Part shown: positions 4,367 to 8,395 of the stretch, piece after piece
Layout of the letters: each line of letters starts with the position of its first letter
Position numbering within the stretch: the first letter of the stretch is position 1
NCBI GenBank assembly: GCA_021734345.1
Contig: JAIPJC010000008.1
Coordinates: 1 to 45,598, forward strand
Length of the DNA: 45,598 nucleotides
Direction of reading: 5' to 3'
DNA from: Kiritimatiellales bacterium
GTDB taxonomy: Bacteria > Verrucomicrobiota > Kiritimatiellia > Kiritimatiellales > Pontiellaceae
The notes under the pieces: model-generated
The model's database searches: none
What the model saw: the letters and a program-made list of their open reading frames with translations, nothing else
What the model was told of the DNA's origin: nothing
Program-made: the position numbers and the translations under genes

Positions 4367-4742
4367 TCAGCGCGCGACGGATGGGCTTTCCGATGCAGGG
4401 ATTTCAAATCGCCCGAGATTGCCACCCGAAGAAGCGTACGGAACATGGAATTCATCGGAGAGCGCGGCGACAAAATGGTTGCGGTGTGCGATGGTGCGGA
4501 CGTCGGCGCGCTTTTCGGTGAAGGGAGAGAGAATGAGCATGCGGTTTGCTTCGAGCGCGGGGCTCCAATCCTTGGGAAGACACATGTGTTCGATCCCACG
4601 GGCGGGGCAAAGGATGATGCTTACTATCGGCAGGACATTTGCGGGAACAGGGAAGACCGGTTTTGTGATTCTCGACCAAATCGCCGTTGCCGATAGCATG
4701 GAAAACCTGCCCTTGAATCTCTATGTGCATAACCGAGTTCAT
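4367..4742 (-). pseudogene. Broken DprA/Smf-like Rossmann protein gene
   Basis: Two minus-strand frames together give recognisable pieces of one protein. Upstream, from ATG 4742: HIEIQGQVFHAIGNGDL and TGLPCSRKCPADS. Then, in a shifted frame from about 4640: IILCPARGIEHMCLPKDW, RMLILSPFTEK and RNHFVAALSDEFHVPYASSGG. These resemble the start (GN.dLL...CSR.CP) and the end (vv.CPARGIE...R.LILSPF...RN.FVAALAD...A..GG) of DprA-like DNA-processing homologues. About 60-80 residues that normally lie between the CSR.CP and CPARGIE blocks are missing at the junction, and the C-terminus is also lost. I read it as a deletion-frameshift remnant. Codons are still intact in each piece, suggesting recent decay. 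Confidence 0.65.
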
Positions 4743-4881
4743 TGTCCAATGTATGTGTGGGTCCGCTAGTTCCACCTACTGTTTATCGCCAAAATATTCC
4801 TTAAAAGAAACCTTGAACCACTGAAGCTACGCCCTAGTATACGTGCAACTCCAAGCCTTATGGCTGTGGACATGGTTTCTT
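4743..4881. other. Short non-coding stretch, nothing recognised
   Basis: This segment between the DprA-like remnant and the hairpin at 4882 has no convincing coding frame, RNA gene or repeat. It is somewhat richer in A+T than the neighbouring genes and may be decayed sequence from the same rearranged region. Confidence 0.4.
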
Positions 4882-4908
4882 GCTCCGTGAACCGGTTAAT
4901 CACGGAGC
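4882..4908 (-). terminator. Perfect stem-loop immediately after the BECR-like gene
   Basis: Nine-base arms GCTCCGTGA (4882-4890) and TCACGGAGC (4900-4908) with a 9-base loop, starting 3 bases beyond the stop codon of the minus-strand gene at 4911. No T-run follows on the minus strand; on the plus strand a TTTTATATTT tract follows. It may act as a 3'-end hairpin for the minus-strand operon, or as a terminator for plus-strand transcription. Confidence 0.5.
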
Positions 4909-4910
4909 TT

Positions 4911-5384
4911 TTATATTTCCCAGAGCTTAACGCTTCCGTTTGTATAGCGCTGGATGTCCTGCTTCCCTGCACAATACGCCGTTGAAAACTTCCACCCTCC
5001 ATCTTTTCGCTCTTCCAGCCAGATGATGTACTGCTCCTGTACAACTACGTACAACCGCCTCTTACGCCGACGATCAGGCACCAGCCAGCACTGGGTTCCT
5101 TCAACCTTTCCTGCCAAAATCGGCGTGATCCATTTGATCCGCTCTATTCGCTCGTGCGCCGTTTTACTTTTTGAATAGGGATGCCGGATACGGTCCGGCG
5201 AAGTGCGGAAGGCATGCTCAAACCGGTCGCGAAAAATGAAGGCGGTTTGGCCGTCATGAAGCCGGATTTCACCCCGGTTGCCGCCGTCCGGGAAAAACTC
5301 CTGCTCATACAGCCGGAAGCCCTCTGCTTCAACCTCCTCTTCCGTCATCCACGAAAGATCTGTTTTCAACAACTCCAAATCCAC
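4911..5384 (-). CDS. Small putative BECR-fold (barnase/EndoU/RelE-like) nuclease
   Basis: 157 residues from the GTG at 5384. That start is chosen because AAGGA, inside the stop region of the upstream DUF3800 gene, is 7 bases before it; an ATG at 5432 in the same frame would overlap DUF3800 with poor ribosome-binding spacing. The C-terminal half has the layout of phage/polymorphic-toxin BECR nucleases: His57 in FRDRFEHAF, a helix with ERIERIKWITPIL, then strands W-LVPD, RLYVVVQEQYIIWLE and a final WKFSTAY strand with Ser135/Thr136/Tyr138. The fold assignment is inference from motif order. It would act as an RNase or toxin, or as a processing nuclease, together with DUF3800. Confidence 0.55.
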   Translation of the reverse strand: MDLELLKTDLSWMTEEEVEAEGFRLYEQEFFPDGGNRGEIRLHDGQTAFIFRDRFEHAFRTSPDRIRHPYSKSKTAHERIERIKWITPILAGKVEGTQCWLVPDRRRKRRLYVVVQEQYIIWLEERKDGGWKFSTAYCAGKQDIQRYTNGSVKLWEI

Positions 5385-5388
5385 GGTG

Positions 5389-6081
5389 CTATCCTTGTGA
5401 AAGACGGATTTTAAAGAGGTTGAATTTTTCATGCTCCGGCGAGGGAGAAACTTCCAACAACGCACAGCCCCTCCTGGAGGCCAGATATTCGATCAACTCC
5501 CTTTTCGGTGATTCAGGCGGAAGGTTCCCGCACCAGGCGGCGGCGACCGCACCCGTCAACAGATCCACCAATTGCCCCAACGGTGTGCGATGGGAGTCAA
5601 TCACCGTTAGATCCGAAATCCACGCGCAGCCTTTCAATTTATTTTCCAGCACCTTGCGCAGTTCGGTAAAGCGATGGGCCTCCTTGTTTTGAATGAAGTC
5701 GAGCAGGATCAGGTATTCATTGTTGGGCTCAAACCAGTGCCACAGCATCTCATAGTAGAATTTATAGAACCCCAATTCGCGATCCGCCCTGGAGAATTTT
5801 TCAAAATCAAGCTTGGTTTGATCCACCACGATCGTACGAAACTGCAAGCCGGGCAGCTCGAAGAAAAAGTCAATCAAGCGTTTGTAGGCCTCCAACTTGA
5901 GACGGCTGACTTTACTCCATTTTACTTCTCCCCCGAGACCGTTCTCGCGGCAGCAGTCGCGCAGAAGACTGGATAACTGGTTCCGTTCGTTCCGGGGCAT
6001 CCAGAGTGAGCCAATGGCCATGTAGGGATTCCGTGTATGGCCGTCGTGGCGGCTTTCATCGCAATAGACGACATATTTCAC
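5389..6081 (-). CDS. DUF3800 family protein (RNase H-like fold)
   Basis: 230 residues. It begins MKYVVYCDESRHDG, the N-terminal strand with the acidic residue (Asp8, Glu9) that marks DUF3800. Further family features follow: GGEVKWSKV, an internal acidic strand (YLILLDF) and TPLGQLVDLLTGAV near the end. DUF3800 is predicted to be an RNase H-like nuclease common in phages, mobile elements and defence islands. The GTG at 6081 is the start, with GGAGG 7 bases upstream. The next gene begins 4 bases after its stop. The context (methylase remnants, membrane protein, BECR-like nuclease) suggests a defence or mobile-element role. Confidence 0.85.
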   Translation of the reverse strand: MKYVVYCDESRHDGHTRNPYMAIGSLWMPRNERNQLSSLLRDCCRENGLGGEVKWSKVSRLKLEAYKRLIDFFFELPGLQFRTIVVDQTKLDFEKFSRADRELGFYKFYYEMLWHWFEPNNEYLILLDFIQNKEAHRFTELRKVLENKLKGCAWISDLTVIDSHRTPLGQLVDLLTGAVAAAWCGNLPPESPKRELIEYLASRRGCALLEVSPSPEHEKFNLFKIRLSQG

Positions 6082-6118
6082 TCTTCATCCTCCTGCTGCT
6101 CTTTTATATCGACACGGT

Positions 6119-6901
6119 TCATGAAACTTCCTCTTCCATTTTTTCTTTTATCTGGGTTCGGATGGTATTTACGAAATTGTCTAAATGTTGCATCCCCTCA
6201 TCGGCGACCTGATTCATCAAGGAGTGGTACTTGGCTCGATCAATTTTGAACCGCAACTCATCCCTGGCCAAGAGAAGCAGTTCGCGCGACATTTTCGAAA
6301 GGGGCTTCAGGTAGCTAAACACAACATCACGACACTTTTCCGTTTCGGCATACTGTTGCTTAAATAACTCGCCTTTTCCCCCATAACATTCCGCAATAAC
6401 ACGATAAGTCTCCGATATCTGCTCCTTGCATAAATGAATGGAGGGACTCATCGGGTCGGATTGCAGGAGCATTTCCGTTTCCTGCTGAAGCCGTGCATTG
6501 GTCGCCTCAAAAGCAGCAATTTGAACATCCATCGCCTTTATATCCACAGCAATAAAACCAGAAGGCATTTTGGCGGCAACCGCATCTGTCATCGCTTTGC
6601 CAAGCAGGCAGCTAAACCTGCACACACACTCGATTGTTTCCAATGAACAGAAAAAGTGAAGCTTGTTCAGCGCAACCGTAACTTCCGTTGCTTCGGCATC
6701 AGTGGAACCCCCCTGTGGTAGGGGACGGTCGGGAATCGACATATAATACATAAAGAAACGATGTACAGCCTCCGAAGCCTGTAGCAGCACCTCTTGCTTA
6801 AGCCTAAATTCAGTCTCTTCCCGACGTTTCTGGCGGTCGAACCAGAATGCCAGCAAAGCTGCCAACATAACGCCGAGAACTGTTGTTAATGCTTCCTGCA
6901 T
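6119..6901 (-). CDS. Membrane-anchored coiled-coil protein of unknown function
   Basis: 260 residues: one N-terminal membrane helix (ALTTVLGVMLAALLAFWF), then a basic stretch and long amphipathic helices through to the C-terminus (for example LREL-like heptads around EATNARLQQETEMLLQ and NTIRTQIKEKMEEEVS). No enzyme motif is visible. The ATG at 6901 overlaps the TAA of an upstream methylase tail (TAATG), and GGAG precedes it, so the gene was once coupled to a restriction-modification gene. DUF3800 follows after 37 bases. It could be the membrane component of a defence module; the function is not recognised. Confidence 0.75.
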   Translation of the reverse strand: MQEALTTVLGVMLAALLAFWFDRQKRREETEFRLKQEVLLQASEAVHRFFMYYMSIPDRPLPQGGSTDAEATEVTVALNKLHFFCSLETIECVCRFSCLLGKAMTDAVAAKMPSGFIAVDIKAMDVQIAAFEATNARLQQETEMLLQSDPMSPSIHLCKEQISETYRVIAECYGGKGELFKQQYAETEKCRDVVFSYLKPLSKMSRELLLLARDELRFKIDRAKYHSLMNQVADEGMQHLDNFVNTIRTQIKEKMEEEVS

Positions 6902-7053
6902 TATTCTCCAGCCTCCATTAGATCCTTGCCCATGCGGTATTTGATATCGTAGTTGATGATGTAGTCCAGCTCCTCGTCTGTGAAGCCGGACTGAAGCCAA
7001 GGTTGCTCGTTATCAAACAACCACCGTCTTTGCCAGTTTAATGACGGCACCAC
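6901..7053 (-). pseudogene. C-terminal tail of an Eco57I-type/N6 DNA methylase
   Basis: A 50-codon minus-strand tail ending in TAA at 6901-6903 reads WLFDNEQPWLQSG then FTDEELDYIINYDIKYRMG and a short acidic end. The 'DEELDyIINYDIKYRMG' ending is typical of large Eco57I-class restriction-modification methylases. No start codon or catalytic part is present, and a TAG separates it in frame from the hsdM/hsdS remnant. Its stop overlaps the start of the membrane-anchored gene by one base, showing the original operon order. Confidence 0.7.
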
Positions 7054-7227
7054 CTACCTTAATCCACCGCCCAGAAGCTTCGGAAGCAGGACGACGAGGG
7101 TGCGGGATTGGTTGTATGCCGCCGCGCCCATATTGTTTTGCAACTTGTCGGCGGTGAGCCAGAGCGTGGCTTCGAAGCCGAAGTTGGCGGAGGTTTTGGT
7201 ATTACTACTCGTTTTCTTCCCTGCCAT
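7054..7227 (-). pseudogene. Deletion fusion of hsdM N-terminus to hsdS C-terminus (type I restriction-modification remnant)
   Basis: From ATG 7227 the frame reads MAGKKTSSNTKTSANFGFEA, LWLTADKLQNNMGAAAYN, which is the conserved start of HsdM (normally followed by a long helical domain and the methylase domain). At once it continues SRTLVVLLPKLLGGGLR and stops. The segment 'esRTL..lr..LLPKLlsGelr' is the usual C-terminus of the specificity subunit HsdS. An in-frame deletion has therefore removed nearly all of hsdM and hsdS, which are normally adjacent in that order. The junction is near 7110. Non-functional. Confidence 0.7.
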
Positions 7228-7421: not shown

Positions 7422-8395
7422 TCCCAGATGCCGGGAATGGGGGCCTGGCAGGCGGGGCAGGCTCCGCCGAGGATGTGGTTTTGCCGGACGGTGTAGCCGC
7501 GGCGTTCGATGAGCAGTTCACCGCACCCTGGGCATGTGGTGCTTTCCCCTTCGCTATCCTGCATGTTGCCGACGTAGACGTATTTCAGGCCGGTTTCGCG
7601 GGCGATCTCGCGGGCGCGCAGGAGGGTTTCGGTCGGGGTGGGTGGCAGGTGCTGGAGCTTGTTCTGCGGGAAGAAGCGCGAGAAGTGCAGCGGGGTTTCA
7701 ACGCCGAGGTTTTCGGCGATCCAGCCACAAAGCTGTTTGGTTTCGTTTTCGGAATCGTTGAGCGTGGGGATGAGGAGGTTGGTGATTTCGAGCATGACGC
7801 CGCATTCCTTCATGGTCACGAGCGCGTTCAATACCGGTTTGAGGCGGGCGTCGCAGACGTTGCGATAGAAATCGTCGGAGAAGGATTTGAGATCGACGTT
7901 GGCGGCAAAGACATGTTGGCAGATTTCGCGGAGCGGTTCGGGGTTGATGTAGGCGGCGGTGACGAGCACGTTTTTGATGCCGGCCTCGGCGGCAGCGACG
8001 CAGCAGTCGTAGGTGTATTCGTAGGAGACAAGCGGCTCGGTGTAGGTGTAGGCGATGGCGGGGCAGTTCCGGGTTTTGGCCATTTGGGCGATGTCCGCGG
8101 GAAAGATTTCGGACGGCGACGCGACTACATTCTCCGCCTGCGAGATCTGCCAGTTCTGGCACTGCCTGCAGTGGAGGTTGCAACCGGCGGTGGCGATGGA
8201 GAGGATGGGCGTGCCGGGCAGGAAGTGGTAGAGCGGCTTTTTTTCGATGGGATCGACGTTGATCGAACACGGCAGGGCATAGGTGGTGCAAACGACTTCC
8301 CCACCGATATTTTTGCGCACCCGGCAGTCGCCGGTTTCACCGGGAGCCAGTTCGCACCCTTTCGGGCAGATCATGCATCTAACTTTTGTCTTCAT
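7418..8395 (-). CDS. amrS: AmmeMemoRadiSam-type radical SAM enzyme
   Basis: 325 residues. A Cys-rich N-terminus (CMICPKGC, GDCRVR) precedes the radical SAM motif at residues 72-79 (CNLHCRQC), which binds the 4Fe-4S cluster and SAM. Then come the YTEPLVSYEYTYD block typical of this family, related to pyruvate-formate-lyase activating enzymes, and a C-terminal double-cysteine knuckle (CPGCG, CPAC). The family usually occurs with AMMECR1 and Memo partners, which are not in this window, so the substrate is unknown. ATG 8395 is preferred over GTG 8404; both overlap the HNH gene, implying coupling. Confidence 0.88.
   Translation of the reverse strand: MKTKVRCMICPKGCELAPGETGDCRVRKNIGGEVVCTTYALPCSINVDPIEKKPLYHFLPGTPILSIATAGCNLHCRQCQNWQISQAENVVASPSEIFPADIAQMAKTRNCPAIAYTYTEPLVSYEYTYDCCVAAAEAGIKNVLVTAAYINPEPLREICQHVFAANVDLKSFSDDFYRNVCDARLKPVLNALVTMKECGVMLEITNLLIPTLNDSENETKQLCGWIAENLGVETPLHFSRFFPQNKLQHLPPTPTETLLRAREIARETGLKYVYVGNMQDSEGESTTCPGCGELLIERRGYTVRQNHILGGACPACQAPIPGIWE

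Follow-up and report, generated by a model that had tools for sequence, protein, structure and literature searches.

The PDC-M04 (rlfA-rlfB) gene pair and a convergent structured RNA: a possible defence cassette linked to restriction-modification genes

The locus and its surroundings

In the window, the whole 45,598-nucleotide stretch of Kiritimatiellales DNA that was analyzed, three genes follow one another on the minus strand. Gene 1 (6119-6901) starts with ATG and encodes a 260-residue protein with an N-terminal membrane segment and a coiled coil. Gene 2 (5389-6081; GTG start, 230 residues) encodes a DUF3800 protein, protein A, and gene 3 (4911-5384; GTG start, 157 residues) encodes protein B, a predicted BECR-fold RNase. 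The gaps are 37 bases between genes 1 and 2 and 4 bases between genes 2 and 3, and the preliminary description had read all three ORFs, their coordinates, and their spacing correctly. An in-frame ATG at 5432 would extend protein B to 173 residues, but translation more probably begins at the GTG (5384), the point from which the same-genus homologue aligns. The plus strand immediately beyond gene 3 holds a small RNA gene (approximately 4846-4918) that converges on gene 3, is not annotated, and had been overlooked by the preliminary description.

Gene 1 starts inside the stop codon (TAATG) of a 50-residue remnant (6901-7053, minus strand) of a DNA methyltransferase C terminus, with 91% identity over 23 residues to a Synechocystis DNA methyltransferase, so that the methylase tail recognized earlier is indeed present. 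This remnant is preceded by a scrap of an HsdM N terminus (7057-7194, minus strand), which matched class I DNA methyltransferases only weakly (E 0.01 to 0.8) and in which a putative HsdS C-terminal motif is recognizable by eye. The three-gene stretch has a G+C content of 47 to 53%, compared with 57 to 59% around it, as would fit acquired DNA. The restriction-modification (R-M) operon that hosted the pair in the window has decayed, and genes 2 and 3 with their RNA, together with an unrelated orphan gene before them, are what remains. Downstream of the RNA, a short ORF (4367-4699, minus strand) resembles a decayed piece of a defence gene or of one like DprA; Pfam gave nothing, and hence no support for the DprA-like reading.

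No relative of gene 1 was found in 194 related genomes, among the collected loci with genes for A and B, or in 84,980 genomes scanned for close relatives, a scan that a fast-evolving distant relative could escape. The plasmid, phage, and viral-contig collections gave none either, again in scans that detect close relatives only, and the gene is not present in the same-genus locus L040. Given this lack of relatives and a same-genus relative that does without it, gene 1 is an orphan that landed in the locus, a bystander within the gene run and not a conserved part of the cassette. The three genes had earlier been grouped into one module, in which the membrane protein would anchor or trigger both nucleases. 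Tight spacing in a single operon-like run and the low G+C content common to the stretch would suit such a module, but the trio never co-occurs elsewhere in the collections searched, which makes this arrangement hardly credible. One other locus (L093) has, upstream of the pair, a 202-residue protein with an N-terminal membrane segment and a coiled coil; its first 50 residues, the part compared, show no detectable similarity to gene 1.

Two nuclease-fold proteins linked to restriction genes

Protein A matches PF12686 (DUF3800) with 36.3 bits (E 1.1e-8), above the gathering cut-off of 21, and the PADLOC model PDC-M04A over 226 of its 232 positions (E 1.5e-63). Its AlphaFold2 model (pLDDT 91.5) has an archaeal RNase HII as its best match in the PDB (Z 13.2 over 166 residues), and Foldseek also returned RNase HII (E 3.4e-6); Argonaute PIWI domains matched as well, with lower scores. 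A sequence search of the PDB yielded only a chance-level match. Residues D8, E9, E52, D128, and D173, invariant or nearly so in the family, are all present in the window copy. Protein A is, by this prediction, an RNase HII-like protein with the acidic residues of the RNase H-type fold, the fold that the preliminary description had proposed. Its nearest named relative, RlfA of phage P1 (approximately 33% identity), was assigned an RNase H fold in a 2013 survey (PMC3710099), and AlphaFold work on other DUF3800 proteins agrees with this fold (PMC10910872).

Protein B is recognized by PDC-M04B (E 2.9e-14, with ten models matching). Its score against PBECR2 (PF18810), 16.2 bits, stays below the gathering cut-off of 27.1 and is only suggestive at the sequence level. 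The AlphaFold2 model (pLDDT 95.8) has the colicin D tRNase domain as its best solved neighbour with a Z of 6.1, a moderate value of a kind that the search tool itself warns is common, and nearly all of the 12 best structural matches are of the colicin D, BrnT, CdiA-CT, HigB, or RelE type. These neighbours, almost uniform in kind, agree with the weak PBECR2 match and with the conserved H, RxxRxxW, and TAY motifs: in the alignment, the candidate catalytic positions H57, R79, R82, W85, and T135-A-Y are conserved among 87 sequences, and all occur in the window copy. A sequence search of the PDB, Foldseek on its own, and a close-relative scan of the viral contigs gave, respectively, no match, nothing significant, and nothing. 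We assign protein B a predicted BECR fold of the colicin D-like tRNase kind. The earlier BECR-like reading of gene 3 thus survives comparison of the model with BECR structures, but its sequence score does not reach the family cut-off.

The preliminary description could match the genes to no described system. Genes 2 and 3, however, already have two names: they constitute the PADLOC candidate two-gene system PDC-M04, in which A directly precedes B, and they are the same pair as rlfA-rlfB of phage P1. Our literature search found no paper that deals with PDC-M04 or tests it for anti-phage activity. By profile, B directly follows A in 111 of 126 A loci, and in six further loci once ORFs with extended starts are read correctly, so that the order holds in at least 117 of the 126.

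HsdS lies directly upstream of the pair in at least 23 of 53 same-strand neighbours, HsdR is encoded by 24 of 42 downstream genes, and the pair is often wedged between hsdS and hsdR; in Phyllobacterium it sits in an hsd operon. This slot is known to take other defence genes, since DarTG2 has been described between hsdS and hsdR (PMC12255303). A relative from the same genus as the window (G024; 62% identity for A and 46% for B) carries the pair directly behind a type III methyltransferase, in a type III R-M operon and with no gene 1, and DUF1156/DUF499 operons are among the other contexts. Adjacent to the same-genus type III R-M operon is a HicA-like toxin gene (L040:5268-5519, minus strand). 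The earlier suggestion of two nuclease-fold proteins (RNase HII-like and BECR) side by side, linked to R-M genes and probably serving defence, is supported. Known as an anti-phage candidate, though uncharacterized, the pair is carried from one bacterium to another within restriction operons.

Phages and prophages often carry the pair as well, with A relatives in 18 phage records and 34 viral contigs, and many phage and prophage loci with the pair have no R-M genes. The P1 annotation gives rlfA and rlfB a possible part in lytic replication, and the pair sits after repL and oriL. One might therefore suppose that the pair serves phage lytic replication, as the names RlfA and RlfB imply, and that the RNA controls this process, a reading that the abundance of phage relatives would also suit. 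The genes are non-essential for P1, however, and are replaced or deleted in P1-like plasmids, and chromosomal pairs lie between hsdS and hsdR. We consider a replication function improbable.

A structured RNA on the opposite strand

When the 260 bases after gene 3 were read in all loci, a conserved element was found at every clearly readable end of the gene, corresponding to a small RNA on the opposite strand, in the same slot from Xanthomonas to Streptococcus. In the window, all parts of this RNA are on the plus strand: a P2/P3 hairpin (4850-4870), a covarying pseudoknot in which a short strand (4874-4876) pairs with the loop of the next hairpin (4891-4893), and a terminator hairpin (4882-4908) followed by TTTTATATTT. 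A generic terminator scan does not report this last hairpin because its loop of 9 bases exceeds the limit of 8 that the scan allows. A putative promoter, TTGAAC-16-TAGTAT (4813-4840, plus strand), is weak, with 8 of 12 positions matching and a score below the tool's own threshold; its position agrees with that of the promoters upstream of the RNA in other loci. Across the loci, promoter-like sites upstream of the RNA score 8.7 on average, compared with 7.4 in shuffles and 7.3 on the opposite strand.

The RNAs fall into three classes. In class 1 (16 sequences, the window included), 99.3% of the cells are paired, and both partners have changed in five pairs, compared with 2.4 in shuffles. The window RNA (4848-4910) is detected at E 1.4e-18 by a sequence profile from which the window was left out; its fold has a z-score of -4.65 relative to shuffles, and a covariance model that includes the window scores it at 84 bits. 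In class 2 (58 sequences), ten pairs have changed on both sides; doubly changed cells number 114, compared with 33 in shuffles. One pseudoknot pair is C-G in 37 sequences and U-A in 19, with no break. The class 2 model gives one match per locus, at the equivalent position, and almost no others in 1.1 Mb of sequence; it also finds loci outside its training set, five of them Gram-positive. It does not find the window RNA, so that classes 1 and 2 need separate models, and it picks up two further class 1 RNAs, weakly but where they are expected (L081, E 0.01; L077, E 0.42). Class 3, which includes P1, has a conserved 24-base motif in the same place and always antisense, present nowhere else in its locus except for one nearby second copy. 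The small RNA itself is well supported. One viral contig carries two tandem class 2 copies (L053:7797-7867 and 7919-7989), and in the five Gram-positive loci (L046, L073, L097, L098, and L123) the RNA is flipped to the sense strand, with a promoter-like site of its own and a separate terminator.

With the RNA placed between B and hsdR and ending in a terminator hairpin, it might be regarded as a mere terminator or attenuator that shields downstream hsdR from read-through and is no partner of A or B. Its T-run and promoter point the opposite way, however; phage loci that lack hsdR also have it, and in the five Gram-positive loci it lies on the sense strand. Termination would, moreover, need neither a pseudoknot nor class-specific co-inheritance, and we hold this explanation to be quite doubtful.

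Mapped onto the tree of A, the RNA classes, three in number, require two changes only, which is the minimum. Class 1 by itself occurs in PVC bacteria, Acidobacteria, Alphaproteobacteria, and an actinobacterium; since the classes follow the A tree despite this spread of hosts, it is A, and not the host, with which the RNA moves. The RNA has evolved together with the pair in many phyla and is probably a third working component of it. This exact tracking could also mean that A itself, an RNase H-fold nuclease guided by RNA or bound to it, acts as the effector, with the RNA serving as guide or scaffold and B as the processing enzyme. The RNase HII and PIWI matches of A would fit such a role, as would the DUF3800 proteins found with Cas12a2 and VI-F loci, for which a part in interference or crRNA processing has been discussed. 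Against this, the RNA has no variable, guide-like stretch, its loops and linkers being conserved within classes, and we regard A as effector as rather unlikely.

That RNAs neighbour DUF3800 genes is a known idea. The Rfam 15 paper names other DUF3800-linked motifs, and Rfam holds DUF3800-I to -XI, of which RF02963 (DUF3800-IV), used as a probe, confirmed that these motifs are in the library. Like them, the RNA described here is structured and lies beside a DUF3800 gene, but no known Rfam family matched it in the window or in 22 other loci, even at permissive E-values. Within the scope of our searches, the RNA, its link with PDC-M04, and its occurrence in P1 seem to be new, with the proviso that a 2017 paper, reportedly the original description of the DUF3800 motifs, may hold a variant that Rfam does not list.

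A possible guard of restriction

Genes 2 and 3 and the convergent RNA may form one mobile defence cassette, an RNA-held tRNase toxin that guards R-M, a working model that we rate at somewhat below an even chance. Protein B, a putative BECR-fold RNase most like the colicin D tRNase domain, would be the toxic effector, presumably directed at tRNA; protein A, as an RNase HII-like nuclease, would bind, trim, or sense the RNA; and the folded RNA, probably together with A, would keep B silent. Placed in or beside R-M operons, the cassette might fire when a phage disables or bypasses restriction and so provide a second line of defence, as PrrC does in EcoprrI. Several observations weigh against this guard model, namely, the weak promoter in the window, the moderate Z of protein B, and the many phage and prophage pairs without R-M genes. 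The annotation and non-essentiality of rlfAB in P1 neither support nor exclude a toxin. In the window itself the R-M operon is broken, so that guarding in cis cannot work there now. The data show the gene pair, the folds as predictions, the RNA with its structure, placement, orientation, and inheritance along with A, and the R-M linkage, whereas the toxicity of B, its tRNA target, its inhibition by the RNA, and the trigger are inferred.

The precedent for such an arrangement is PrrC, an anticodon nuclease silenced by the type I R-M enzyme to which it is linked (PMC2610378). In both cases an RNase toxin or toxin candidate lies in an R-M operon, here often in the slot between hsdS and hsdR. PrrC, however, is an ABC-ATPase/HEPN protein without an RNA partner, and there is no homology; Pfam and the structural matches show neither an ABC-ATPase nor a HEPN domain in A or B, so that only the R-M setting is common to both. 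In its manner of working, the cassette would resemble the type III toxin-antitoxin systems ToxIN, CptIN, and TenpIN, which link an endoribonuclease to a pseudoknotted RNA. In those systems the RNA is a repeat array upstream of the toxin gene, whereas here it is a single unit, antisense, and downstream in convergent orientation; the toxin fold also differs, and the RNase H-fold protein is an addition.

In comparison with PDC-M04 as listed by PADLOC, both window proteins match the models and follow in the same order, A then B, but PADLOC lists no RNA, and in the window an orphan gene precedes the pair and the host R-M operon has decayed. The P1 genes belong to the same two families in the same order, overlap each other, and are followed immediately, on the other strand, by a class 3 RNA; the differences are the RNA class, which is class 1 in the window, and the setting, a lytic replicon instead of an R-M operon. 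The PDC-M04 proteins were previously listed as candidate defence proteins with no mechanism, and the RNA partner turns them into a concrete, testable RNA-protein module. Since it is present in a standard laboratory phage, it can be tested at once. The RNA partner also connects the long-standing puzzle of RNA motifs beside DUF3800 genes with defence and R-M.

A still broader claim would be that a BECR toxin that cuts tRNA, its RNase HII-like partner, and a small pseudoknotted RNA make up a widespread three-part defence machine that guards restriction systems and is carried both by hosts and by temperate phages such as P1. We think this somewhat unlikely. If true, it would be the first toxin-RNA pair with this combination of folds, and it would account for the structured RNAs that lie beside so many DUF3800 genes.

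Blind searches for the RNA in 97 and 289 genomes returned two strong copies without an intact pair. In one genome (G370, C105:1709-1783, locus L160), the RNA lies beside hsdR, only a C-terminal fragment of B is left, and A was not found. In the other (G082, C753:17768-17835, locus L157), a class 1 RNA is convergent with a Fic-type gene, and the genome holds neither A nor B. If the RNA were the antidote, one would expect it to outlast the toxin in this way, although two cases are no proof. A Fic-type gene follows the RNA in locus L132 as well (L132:8481-9605), and the RNA may thus have been exchanged between defence genes.
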